From: a virus
Reading direction: 5' to 3' (one strand)
Length of the DNA: 38,366 nucleotides
IMG/VR virus record: IMGVR_UViG_3300043466_001801
Location: 1-38,366 of that record
Below the pieces are notes generated by a model that worked only from the letters and a program-made list of their open reading frames with translations, was not told the origin of the DNA and ran no database searches. Numbering within the stretch: the first letter of the stretch is position 1; every line of letters starts with the position of its first letter. The position numbers and the translations under genes were made by a program. Shown here piece by piece: positions 16,766-38,240 of this stretch.

Positions 16766-16927
16766 ATGAGAGACACAATAGGAATAATACAATTTAAAGA
16801 TAATACGATTATCTTAAAACCATTTGAAGGTAATGAAGAAATTTGGGAAGAATCTAAGTCTTTGATAAACACGGTAGGAACTAAGTTTATAAAATTTGAA
16901 GGTAAGAAGTATTATCCAAAAAAATAA
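16766..16927 (+). CDS. 53-residue hypothetical protein
   Basis: This short ORF encodes a peptide starting MRDTIGIIQFKDNTIILKPF and ending KKYYPKK. It has strands followed by a helix (NEEIWEESKSLI) and a beta-like end (TKFIKFEGKKYY). It sits in its own unit between TATTTAT motifs and a terminator. Function unknown. Confidence 0.6.
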   Translation: MRDTIGIIQFKDNTIILKPFEGNEEIWEESKSLINTVGTKFIKFEGKKYYPKK

Positions 16928-16928
16928 A

Positions 16929-16957
16929 AAAACCCACCAACTAAGGTGGGTTTTTCT
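16929..16957. terminator. Bidirectional hairpin terminator
   Basis: AAACCCACC...GGTGGGTTT, with A-rich flank on one side and TTTTTC on the other, between convergent genes. The minus-strand kinase ends at 16958, immediately beside it. Confidence 0.82.
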
Positions 16958-17392
16958 TTATAATTTAACTTCGAAACGATTTTTCATTATTTCAAGTTTG
17001 TCTTCCGGAACCCCGTGTTCGTTGACGCCTCCGTGTCTATTTTCAACAATTAAAGAATAAACTTTATATCCGTATTTTTCTGCCAAGTCAAAATAAGGTT
17101 TCATTTCCCACTCTTGGGTAAATGTGTTTGATACAACAACTGGTGAATGTTCCAGTCTCATAACAAATTCAATTTCTTCTTGGCACCATTGATGAGCATC
17201 TTTTAGTTGGGAAGGTTTAAAGTTATAGTTACCTTCGCTATCTACAAAATACATATCAGTCTCTTTGTGACAATAGTCTTTATCACCAACTAACTGTTTA
17301 GCCAATGTTGATTTACCACTTCCTGGTTACGGAACCCCCCTTAAAAGGAATAATTCCTTCAGGGGGGTTATATTTTTTGTTAATTTATACAT
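16958..17392 (-). pseudogene. N4BP2-like P-loop kinase with an in-frame TAA inside Walker A
   Basis: Read from ATG 17392, the frame gives MYKLTKNITPLKELFLLRGV, then P, a TAA stop (17327-17329), then PGSGKSTLAKQLVGDKDY. Removing TAA plus one proline codon gives RGVPGSGKST, a canonical Walker A. Downstream are ETDMYF, AHQWCQEEIE, SPVVVSNTFTQEWEMKPYF and NEHGVPEDKLEIMKNRFE, typical of N4BP2-like ATPase/polynucleotide kinase domains that phosphorylate nucleotides or RNA ends. The frame is intact for 145 codons except for the TAA. A strong hairpin (17333-17369) ends just before the CCG preceding the stop. Either a 6-base insertion killed the gene or ribosomes skip CCG-TAA-CCA. Ribosomal readthrough would not restore Walker A. 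Confidence 0.75.
17333..17369 (-). other. Strong hairpin inside the kinase coding start
   Basis: AACCCCCCT (17333-17341) pairs perfectly with AGGGGGGTT (17361-17369), and an inner AAGGAA/TTCCTT stem is closed by a TAA loop. On the coding strand it spans codons 8-20 of the kinase frame and ends directly before CCG-TAA-CCA. On the plus strand it is followed by TTATATTTTTT and would look like a terminator, but no plus-strand gene reads into it. Confidence 0.85.
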
Positions 17393-17402
17393 AATTTACG
17401 TC

Positions 17403-17606
17403 TTATTTAATGTATTGTCGTTTAAATCTTGTTTGTTTCTCATTTAATACAATGATGTATTTCTTCCCGGATTTAGTTTTATAAACTTGGAATCTCATCG
17501 TATCAATGTAATACCATTCATTGGTATATGAATAATCCTTAATCCTTTGTTCTACACCACATGAAAGTAATGTGAATAAAAACGCAAAGATAATAATTTT
17601 TTTCAT
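17403..17606 (-). CDS. Small lipoprotein
   Basis: The 67-residue protein begins MKKIIIFAFLFTLLSCGVEQ, a lipoprotein signal peptide with lipobox LLSC (Cys16). The mature part, about 50 residues, is basic and beta-like (YYIDTMRFQVYKTKSGKKYI, ending KRQYIK). It is expected in the membrane of an infected cell. It lies between a membrane protein gene and the kinase, as an operon. It could help exclude other phages or act at lysis, but nothing shows this. Confidence 0.8.
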   Translation of the reverse strand: MKKIIIFAFLFTLLSCGVEQRIKDYSYTNEWYYIDTMRFQVYKTKSGKKYIIVLNEKQTRFKRQYIK

Positions 17607-29725: not shown

Positions 29726-30841
29726 TTAATTTTGTTTATTACTACCATCCTGTGTAGCATATTTTATCCCCATAATTGTACCAACTATTGAAAATGCGTT
29801 AGTTAACAAAACACTAAACATATTACTCCAAGTGGAACCAATTATTTGTGTATCTTGATTTGTCACAATAGCAACCCAATATAATATAGTTGTTACAATA
29901 CCAACACCTATTATGACAGCTAAAGCACACTTAACAATTACTTTTATTAACTCACTTTGACCTTTTTTTATAATTACATCTAAATCATTCAAAGCGGCAT
30001 CCTTTTCTAATTCTATCGCATTTTTAAGTTTTTGTGAGTTTTCCAATTCTATCGTCAAATTCTTTGTAAGTTCGTCTATTTTCTTCTTATCGTTTACCGC
30101 TTCAGTCACATCAGTTGCAATTTTAACTACATCAGTGATATTCCCTTTACTATCAACAACTGGATTATAAGATGCCTGTAAATAAATAATAGAACCATCT
30201 ACTTTTCTTCTTTCGAATATTCCATCAAAGAATTTACCTTTTTTTAACTTTTCCCAAAACTTAATATATTCATCAGAATTTGAGTACTCATAACTTACAA
30301 ACATACTATGATGCTTTCCAACGATTTTATCTTTTTCATTGGACTTATACCCCATAGTTTCCAAAAATATAGAATTTGCATTTGTTATAATTCCATCAGT
30401 AGTAAAACTAATAAGGGCGGTACTTCGGTTAATTGCGTCTATTTGTTTTTTACTCTCAACAATTGATGTAATGTCAGTGGCAATTTTCATTATTTTTGTA
30501 ATCTTACCACTATCATCAAAAATAGGATTATAAGTTGCTTGAAGATTTATAAGACTCCCATCTTTTCTTCTTCTTTCAAATTCCCCCTGGTAGTACTTAC
30601 CACTTCTTAATATGTCCCAAAATTTTTCATATTCAGGTGACTTTGCATATTCTTCACATACAAAAATACTATGGTGTTTACCAATGAGTTCTTCGTGAGT
30701 ACCTATTCCATATCCCATCGCCTCTAAAAAAATGTCATTGACACCTAATATAATTCCCGATAAATCGAAATAAATAATAGCGTTACTTCTATTAATCGCC
30801 TCAAGACGACTTAATAGTTCTTCTTTTGATAGGTTTTTCAT
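29726..30841 (-). CDS. Tandem-PAS protein with C-terminal two-TM (holin-like) domain
   Basis: The 371-residue protein has two homologous PAS domains (about 15-130 and 135-250), each with a GKHHS(I/M)FV motif, E(F)xRR-(K)xDG, LQA(T/S)YNP and KIATD(I/V)T. A coiled-coil linker (247-296) precedes TM1 (299-325) and TM2 (338-360) with a short polar tail. The PAS sequences resemble those in chemoreceptors such as Aer/BdlA; the usual signalling domain is absent and hydrophobic helices take its place. It lies 2 bases after the i-spanin-like gene and 7 before the lipoprotein gene. PAS domains sense redox, light or ligands; a lysis-gating role is inference. Confidence 0.85.
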   Translation of the reverse strand: MKNLSKEELLSRLEAINRSNAIIYFDLSGIILGVNDIFLEAMGYGIGTHEELIGKHHSIFVCEEYAKSPEYEKFWDILRSGKYYQGEFERRRKDGSLINLQATYNPIFDDSGKITKIMKIATDITSIVESKKQIDAINRSTALISFTTDGIITNANSIFLETMGYKSNEKDKIVGKHHSMFVSYEYSNSDEYIKFWEKLKKGKFFDGIFERRKVDGSIIYLQASYNPVVDSKGNITDVVKIATDVTEAVNDKKKIDELTKNLTIELENSQKLKNAIELEKDAALNDLDVIIKKGQSELIKVIVKCALAVIIGVGIVTTILYWVAIVTNQDTQIIGSTWSNMFSVLLTNAFSIVGTIMGIKYATQDGSNKQN

Positions 30842-36673: not shown

Positions 36674-37909
36674 TTAGTTGGATAATGGAGCTTTAATTGT
36701 TGGGTGTGATTGATAATTTTCCAAAATAAAATCATCCGGTTTTAATGATTTAATCCAATCATTAAATACTATTGACGAATGTTGTTCTTCATTCGCATTC
36801 TTATACCAATTAGAAAATTTTAATGTTGGTAATGGGAATGGTTCTCTAGTTCTTTTTGGTATTTTCAAGGTATCATCAATATAACTCATACCAATACTTG
36901 TTTGATGTTTAAGGTTACCATTAATTTCTTCAGATAAACGTACTCTTTCACTTAGTGCATACTCCCTACCAATCTGTTCTTTTGCCTGTTCAATATGATT
37001 TAAATACAAATGAACATCACCAAGATTTCCAATCAACTGGTCAGGAACCATATTTACTTCTTTTGCAATTATTTCTAATAACAATCCATAAGAAGCGATG
37101 TTAAATGGTAAACCTAAGAATGTATCTACTGAACGTTGATTCCACATTAAAGAGATTGCTCTTGTCGGGATGTTATCTTCGTTTAGTAAATCTATAATAT
37201 CGTGTTCTTCCATATTATGCCACGACATATCTTGACTGAAGTTGTTTTTATTCCAAATATCTTTTCTTTCTTCACCACTCAACTCTCTTGTATAAACTTG
37301 AAATCCATAATGACAAGGTGGAAGCACCGTTTGGTCTAATTCTCCAACATTCCAAGCATTAACCATTAATCGTCTTGAGTCTGGATTTATTTTAAGTTTG
37401 TTAATTAGGTTTTGGATTTGGTCTATTTGTTCGATATTCCATCCACCGCCATATTCACCATTTCCAAAATCATTATCAACGGTAAAATTATATTTTCCCC
37501 AACTTCTCCATTGCTTACCATAAATTGGACCTAACTCACCCCACTTCTTAGCAAACCCACTATCGTTTTTGATTTTGTTGATGAATTCTTCTTGAGTTAG
37601 ACTATCACCTTTAGAAGTTAAATTTTTACTTCTATAATTCTTGTAAGCATCGCCATCCCATATATGACAATTATTATCAACAAGGAACTCAATATTAGTA
37701 TCGCCTCGTAAGAACCAAAGAAGTTCTGTTACAATTGTTTTAAATGGCATCTTCTTTGTAGTAAGAAGTGGAAAACCATCCTTCATATTGTGACGTATCT
37801 GTCTTCCGAATACTGAGATTGTTCCTGTACCGGTTCTGTCTTGTTTTGTTGCTCCGTTGTTAAGAATGTCTTGGAGTAAGTCCTGATATTGTTTATCTAA
37901 TGTGTTCAT
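36674..37909 (-). CDS. thyA: Thymidylate synthase (ThyA type)
   Basis: The 411-residue enzyme converts dUMP to dTMP with methylenetetrahydrofolate. Motifs: DRTGTGTISVFGRQ near 24-37, TTKKMPFKTIVTELLWFLRG, LGPIYGKQWR near 126-135, PDSRRLMVNAWNV, LPPCHYGFQVY with catalytic Cys199, RSVDTFLGLPFNIASYG and GDVHLYLNH. It is longer than the typical 264-residue enzyme, with inserts around 95-125 and after 206. Start ATG 37909 matches family alignment; an ATG at 37966 overlapping the upstream stop would add 19 residues. Confidence 0.95.
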   Translation of the reverse strand: MNTLDKQYQDLLQDILNNGATKQDRTGTGTISVFGRQIRHNMKDGFPLLTTKKMPFKTIVTELLWFLRGDTNIEFLVDNNCHIWDGDAYKNYRSKNLTSKGDSLTQEEFINKIKNDSGFAKKWGELGPIYGKQWRSWGKYNFTVDNDFGNGEYGGGWNIEQIDQIQNLINKLKINPDSRRLMVNAWNVGELDQTVLPPCHYGFQVYTRELSGEERKDIWNKNNFSQDMSWHNMEEHDIIDLLNEDNIPTRAISLMWNQRSVDTFLGLPFNIASYGLLLEIIAKEVNMVPDQLIGNLGDVHLYLNHIEQAKEQIGREYALSERVRLSEEINGNLKHQTSIGMSYIDDTLKIPKRTREPFPLPTLKFSNWYKNANEEQHSSIVFNDWIKSLKPDDFILENYQSHPTIKAPLSN

Positions 37910-37958
37910 GCACTTATTTCTTTGTTTAGGGTGTCTCCACTTTCCGTAGTTAGACCAT

Positions 37959-38240
37959 TTATTCATTTCTATTTTGTTTTGATATGTAAATATAAAGTGT
38001 GGCGATGGCTTTATCCCACTCTTTATACAATTCACTATTTGTATTCATCTCATTATAGAATTCTTCTTTTGTTAAAAGTTTTCCAGGATTAGATGGTTGA
38101 CAGGAATTATCCTCACTATAAGTTCCATTTTGAAACATTGGGTGAATCCACCGAGCAGTTGACATACTATGTTCTGTTTCATAACATTCATATACTTGGT
38201 CCAAGGTCTCAACCATATTGGGGTCTAAATTACTTTCCAT
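37959..38240 (-). CDS. Acidic hypothetical protein upstream of thymidylate synthase
   Basis: The 93-residue protein starts at ATG 38240 (MESNLDPNMVETLDQVYECY). It has EHSMSTARWIHPMFQNG, then KLLTKEEFYNEMNTNSELYK and an aromatic-basic end (ATLYIYISKQNRNE). The LTKEEFxNEMxxNxxxYKEW stretch resembles the SLTQEEFINKIKNDSGFAKK insert of the following thymidylate synthase, a curious parallel. Function unknown. Confidence 0.72.
   Translation of the reverse strand: MESNLDPNMVETLDQVYECYETEHSMSTARWIHPMFQNGTYSEDNSCQPSNPGKLLTKEEFYNEMNTNSELYKEWDKAIATLYIYISKQNRNE

Follow-up and report, generated by a model that had tools for sequence, protein, structure and literature searches.

The locus described here raises the question of whether a phage kinase gene with a stop codon inside its Walker A motif is dead or is still translated into a complete enzyme. 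The window, meaning the whole stretch of 38,366 nucleotides that was analysed (IMG/VR record IMGVR_UViG_3300043466_001801, positions 1 to 38,366), carries this gene on the minus strand. A first-pass annotation had proposed that peptidyl-tRNA-Pro hops from CCG to CCA over a TAA, restoring the motif RGVPGSGKST, and had named a pseudogene as the simpler alternative. The relatives, the covariation and the selection described below support the hop, and a programmed in-frame "stop hop" carried by a mobile cassette is, judged from sequence comparison, very probably the best explanation. The features of the locus are the following.

16958-17392, minus strand: polynucleotide-kinase-type gene (Pfam AAA_33, 2.3e-12), broken in Walker A
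17403-17606, minus strand: 67-aa gene upstream of the kinase, left edge of the short cassette of the window (alignment to L005, blastn to L034)
17330-17392, minus strand: first ORF, 21 codons from ATG to CCG, apparent replacement 5' end of the kinase (length constancy in family 1)
17333-17369, minus strand: RNA hairpin with a putative stimulatory role (fold, covariation in relatives, covariance model match)
17330-17332, minus strand: proposed take-off codon CCG (Pro; CCN in all distinct homologues when this codon is left free)
17327-17329, minus strand: stop codon TAA, predicted to occupy the A site when the tRNA leaves CCG (all 33 distinct sequences have a stop here with this codon left free)
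17324-17326, minus strand: proposed landing codon CCA (YYN in 49/50 distinct sequences)
16958-17323, minus strand: second ORF of 121 codons plus stop, with the rest of Walker A (GSGKST) and the kinase body (dN/dS to relatives of about 0.05-0.16, with a family median of 0.16)

Read on the minus strand, 17392-16958 encodes MYKLTKNITPLKELFLLRGVP-TAA-PGSGKSTLAKQ..., after which the frame is open to 16958. The stop between the CCG and CCA codons is thus confirmed, and the frame is otherwise as clean as first described, with no second stop; the predicted hop product has 142 aa. The AlphaFold2 model of an intact homologue matches polynucleotide kinases in the PDB, for example a bacterial enzyme (PDB ID 4jt2) and that of T4 (PDB ID 2ia5), and by this modelled fold together with the Pfam match the gene is a P-loop kinase of the polynucleotide-kinase type. 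The six-base insertion noted in the first-pass annotation is present, but intact alleles differ from the window in more than this. An N-terminal extension in the window supplies the 5' arm of the hairpin, and the KELFLLRGVP codons carry synonymous or conservative changes, which build the hairpin.

Elsewhere in the window, a GC-rich inverted repeat followed by a T run lies just past the kinase stop (16927-16953) and is likely a bidirectional terminator between convergent genes. A thymidylate-synthase-like ORF of 453 aa (36674-38035, minus strand) matches its Pfam family with 321 residues over 235 profile positions and may carry an insertion of about 85 residues, and a phage protein bearing two PAS domains is encoded at 29726-30841 (minus strand). 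Scans of the window against Rfam and for tRNAs gave no hit, neither to an intron nor to another curated RNA family.

According to the proposed mechanism, the ribosome would make 21 codons and arrive with peptidyl-tRNA-Pro on CCG and UAA in the A site. Termination and release after proline are slow. The hairpin behind the ribosome could complete its pairing only if the mRNA moved 5'-ward, and slow termination and hairpin completion together would favour letting go of CCG. The tRNA-Pro would then re-pair six nucleotides on, at CCA, and decoding would restart at GGA. The product would then carry RGVPGSGKST, the Walker A of a phage polynucleotide kinase in its intact form. The constant length of the first ORF may stop a trailing ribosome from melting the hairpin; polysome crowding is described to weaken the 5' stem-loop of T4 gene 60 (PMC11194080).

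The first-pass annotation had suggested looking for the stop and the hairpin in relatives. Most of the about 80 related loci that we compared are uninterrupted, start with MKELFLLRGLPGSGKST and lack the hairpin, and the architecture of the window recurs with varying codons, namely CCT TAG CCA (L013), CCG TAA CCA (L036), CCT TGA CCG (L056) and CCT TAA CTA (L067). Pattern scans of IMG/VR yielded 50 distinct hop contexts, so that at least 50 distinct sequences share one design: a strong hairpin reaching the Walker A proline codon, a stop, a codon that tRNA-Pro(UGG) can pair with, and GxGK[ST]. Dozens of relatives therefore carry the interruption, with different stops (TAA in 25, TGA in 16 and TAG in 9 of the 50) and a covarying hairpin, which favours the hop.

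The design also holds when its codons are not prescribed. With the middle and landing codons left free, the IMG/VR scan returned a stop codon in all 33 distinct sequences (47 contigs plus the window) and a sense codon in none, and with the stop fixed but the take-off and landing codons free, the same 47 contigs came back, always with CCN before the stop. The landing codons of the 50 distinct sequences are CTA (15), CCA (13), CCG (8), CTT (5), CCT (3), TCA (2), CTG (2), TTA (1) and ACA (1), and the 49 YYN codons among them can pair with tRNA-Pro(UGG), anticodon 3'-GGU-5', by Watson-Crick or G.U pairs. This suggests that the landing codon needs only to pair with tRNA-Pro, not to match the take-off codon exactly. 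The sole exception to the pairing rule is ACA (L148:1509-1578, plus strand), whose first base should not pair with tRNA-Pro; in L148, a relative of the nuclease described below lies directly upstream of the hop gene. The third base of the take-off codon is T or G in 48 of the 50 hop genes and A in only 2, whereas the same proline codon is CCA in 23 of 55 intact genes (p = 3e-6). Weak pairing at take-off with better pairing at landing is a prediction of the P-site re-pairing model. The distance from start to take-off is exactly 21 codons in 27 of the 34 family-1 hop genes, with a variable N-terminal sequence.

Three loci have a Walker A motif interrupted by CCT-TAG-CCT or CCT-TAA-CTG (L087:3129-3167, minus strand; L091:2580-2618, minus strand; L154:10899-10954, plus strand). 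Their start lies merely 12 codons upstream and their hairpins are weak or unusual; the L154 stem, GATGCC/GGCATC, includes the ATG, and a Shine-Dalgarno-like AAGGAG is present in L087 and L091. They are possibly a separate, shorter hop type, perhaps from other hosts, and their membership in the hop family is uncertain. A search of the retrieved loci (about 1.4 Mb) for further genes with the hop architecture matched almost only kinase Walker A sites, and a scan of prokaryotic genomes for the hop pattern gave six chance hits. No hop was found among the inspected cultured-phage matches, all hop genes being on metagenomic phage contigs.

The hairpin placed by the first-pass annotation at 17333-17369, just before CCG, is present and larger than described. 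Besides the GC-rich outer stem of 9 bp (17369-17361 with 17341-17333), which abuts CCG, it has an inner stem of 7 bp (17360-17354 with 17350-17344). The region 17300-17400 folds with a minimum free energy of -26.4 kcal/mol, which corresponds to z = -2.5 when compared with dinucleotide shuffles. When a covariance model is trained on 17 relatives, with the window excluded, it scores the window site at 54.6 bits (E = 2e-12), and no intact kinase reaches 20 bits with the same model. The 52 nt upstream fold with -16.8 or stronger in 46 of the 50 hop genes, compared with -8.9 or weaker in 36 intact homologues. Single positions of the outer stem exchange CG, GC, UA and AU among hop sequences, and 338 of 344 cells of this stem are paired, against 291 +/- 4 when the right arms are swapped between sequences. 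The covariation score of 0.368 compares with 0.195 for shuffled alignments, none of 500 shuffles being as high, and also beats all slid versions. All outer-stem positions are paired (100%) in the register of 17 sequences, and in all 50 hop sequences the last paired base is 0 or 1 nt from the take-off codon. Hop genes thus have a covarying hairpin that uninterrupted homologues lack.

The inner stem of the window hairpin is separated from the P-site codon, on its 5' side, by about 12 nt or more and would lie outside the ribosome, with the outer stem within the exit channel; such a geometry has been proposed for the 5' stem-loop "motor" of T4 gene 60 (PMC5009743). A mini-hairpin around the take-off codon of the window (GGTT-CCGT-AACC) was dropped as a candidate, as it is not kept in L056 or L067. 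Neither a take-off stem-loop from the gap sequence nor a 3' stem-loop was seen: the gap has 6 nt, and RNAalifold shows only a 3-bp CCN/NGG pairing, which is dictated by the codons.

Beyond the stop, the kinase body is under purifying selection equal to that on intact genes, with a post-stop dN/dS of 0.161 for hop versus 0.146 for intact genes in family 1 and of 0.179 versus 0.144 in family 2, which indicates that the body is translated. In all 23 hop-phage records there is a single kinase gene, which contains exactly one stop, so these records, which may be incomplete, contain no intact back-up. The interrupted kinases include single-domain proteins, a kinase with a cyclic-phosphodiesterase-like domain (L151) and a kinase with a HAD_PNKP phosphatase (L153). 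On kinase-body trees, the hop trait is scattered among intact genes (9 and 5 changes, with well-supported branches forcing 2 and 4), a pattern that fits a moving cassette; a single origin is unsupported on these trees.

A candidate for the mobile part adjoins many hop genes upstream. It is a protein of ~290 aa with NUMOD3 repeats and a TnsA-like PD-(D/E)XK domain containing a PD..ExK motif, whose predicted fold resembles TnsA and I-Bth0305I with weak E-values (0.02 for TnsA). Its gene lies within about 115 nt upstream of the hop in 23 of the 40 hop genes with enough flank, being missing in the other 17, versus 1 of 57 intact kinases (p = 1.5e-10); in this single intact case, a diverged relative of the nuclease (L074:2252-3256, plus strand) is 1.8 kb upstream. 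The nuclease gene is usually divergent from the kinase gene, while family 2, L148 and L152 have both genes on one strand. A search of cultured phages with the nuclease gave only weak NUMOD3 hits.

Nuclease, leader and hop form one block, with up to 98-100% DNA identity that ends at the hop, while flanks and kinase body are diverged. Between L115 and L122, for example, identity is mostly 93-100% from -960 to 0, the DNA beyond -1020 is unrelated and the body is 71-91% identical. The left flank of L147 is 91-94% identical to that of the intact L197 up to +19 nt inside Walker A, and displaced old 5' ends are retained in L187 (...RGIPGA), L110 (...RGIPGSG) and L013 (MKELFLLRGI). This edge and these remnants indicate that a block of ~1 kb sits in the Walker A codons and brings a substitute 5' end. 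Empty and occupied sites with co-conversion edges are thus found in related genomes. The nuclease would act as a homing-type endonuclease; the insert of stop plus landing codon would probably split its own target and so prevent recutting, and the hop would keep the kinase working despite the inserted cassette.

No nuclease gene was found in the window. The 67-aa gene upstream of the window kinase is common to the window and to its intact-kinase relatives L034 and L005, and because this upstream gene is continuous with theirs, the window is, on the alignments, a short, nuclease-less ("hop only") derivative of the cassette.

Several other readings of the interruption have to be weighed. For a lone case, the default reading would be a pseudogene, inactivated by an in-frame insertion of 6 bp, and L034, the closest overall relative of the window, does have an intact kinase. 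Dozens of genes share the interruption, however, with various stop codons and with a hairpin that covaries; their bodies keep length and frame and evolve under the same purifying selection as intact genes, and there is no second kinase copy in the record. These observations make this alternative very improbable. An assembly error was rejected on the many independent contigs, the covariation and the dN/dS. Reassignment of the stop was likewise rejected, since all three stops occur at the site and all of them also end other genes. Stop-codon readthrough, in which a near-cognate tRNA decodes the stop and the kinase gains two residues (RGVP-X-P/L/S-GSGKST), deserves more attention. C follows the stop in nearly all cases, which is a weak termination context, stop-CUA is a known readthrough context in eukaryotic viruses, and a strong RNA structure is present. 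However, readthrough would put two residues into the middle of Walker A and replace the first glycine, and none of the 33 distinct sequences turned out to be an uninterrupted homologue with a sense codon at the stop position. It also leaves unexplained why proline always precedes the stop, why a YYN codon pairable with tRNA-Pro follows it in 49 of 50 sequences and why the hairpin is 5' of the take-off codon and abuts it, so that we consider readthrough improbable.

The short first ORF of constant length with its hairpin also recalls a leader-peptide attenuator, where the ORF would end at the stop by design and the downstream ORF would be started separately. Here, the "leader" codes for part of the kinase itself, namely its first beta strand and the first half of Walker A. 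No start codon lies between the stop and GxGK, and a product started later would have no P-loop; this explanation is highly unlikely. Equally hard to credit is removal of the six bases at the DNA or RNA level instead of by the ribosome. Mobile cassettes of such a kind are often introns or inteins, and these phages encode RNA-repair enzymes, but the window has no intron or Rfam family, no mechanism is known to excise 6 nt, and the pairing rule of the landing codon would be meaningless for such a process.

The preferred reading, a stop hop carried by a cassette, would probably add a third widespread lifestyle of homing elements to those of introns and inteins, in which the element sits in active-site codons of a conserved gene, supplies a substitute 5' end and is neutralised by ribosomes that hop over a stop. 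Such elements would have spread among several families of phage RNA-repair kinases and would provide the first natural in-frame stop hop. A 2010 review described bypassing as one that "appears to be unique to T4 gene 60" (PMC3014915), and a 2016 review knew of no occurrences of natural in-frame stop hopping (PMC5009743). Our search of open-access PMC articles up to August 2026, without preprints, found close parallels in T4 gene 60 and mobA only. For more than 30 years, a single gene had represented programmed bypassing in phages. A set of at least 50 distinct natural cases, which combine a 6-nt gap with a simple hairpin on the 5' side, opens a comparative study of how the ribosome leaves and regains the message, and the existence of natural stop hops becomes a simple reporter question. 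The results further suggest that mobile elements combining a homing endonuclease with bypassing are a recurrent type, and that such genes will have been taken for broken ones by gene callers and in catalogues of readthrough.

The closest known system, T4 gene 60 with mobA (PMC3014915, PMC5009743, PMC11194080, PMC2988022), shares with the hop genes a take-off codon directly before a stop, a landing codon paired by the same tRNA, a 5' stem-loop behind the ribosome, a homing endonuclease gene beside the bypass and an insertion in a conserved functional part of an enzyme. The hop genes differ in their gap, which has 6 nt in frame and no take-off stem-loop, versus 50 nt in gene 60, in taking off from proline instead of glycine, and in a landing codon that need not equal the take-off codon. 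A nascent-peptide signal about 30 residues from the P site, as in gene 60, does not fit the hop genes, whose first ORF is too short for this spacing and has a variable N-terminus. The nuclease is of the NUMOD3 and PD-(D/E)XK type, whereas MobA is HNH, and hops occur in dozens of phages and several kinase families, whereas gene 60 is a single gene.

Synthetic "stop hops" in E. coli reporters (Weiss et al. 1987, as summarised in PMC5009743) are a second parallel, to which the hop genes would add natural, conserved cases with a putative stimulatory hairpin. The mitochondrial byp elements of Magnusiomyces capitatus, as presented in the part of the same review that covers them (PMC5009743), are also inserted, apparently mobile blocks that are bypassed in translation and tolerate an imperfect match of take-off and landing codons. 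Unlike the hop cassette, they occur in mitochondria, are longer and often out of frame, and are described as not depending on mRNA context, and that part of the review describes no linked nuclease. Inteins and intron-borne homing endonucleases, finally, resemble the cassette as selfish elements in the active-site codons of a conserved gene that are neutralised at expression; they achieve this by splicing, whereas the cassette would do so by ribosome hopping and a substitute 5' end.
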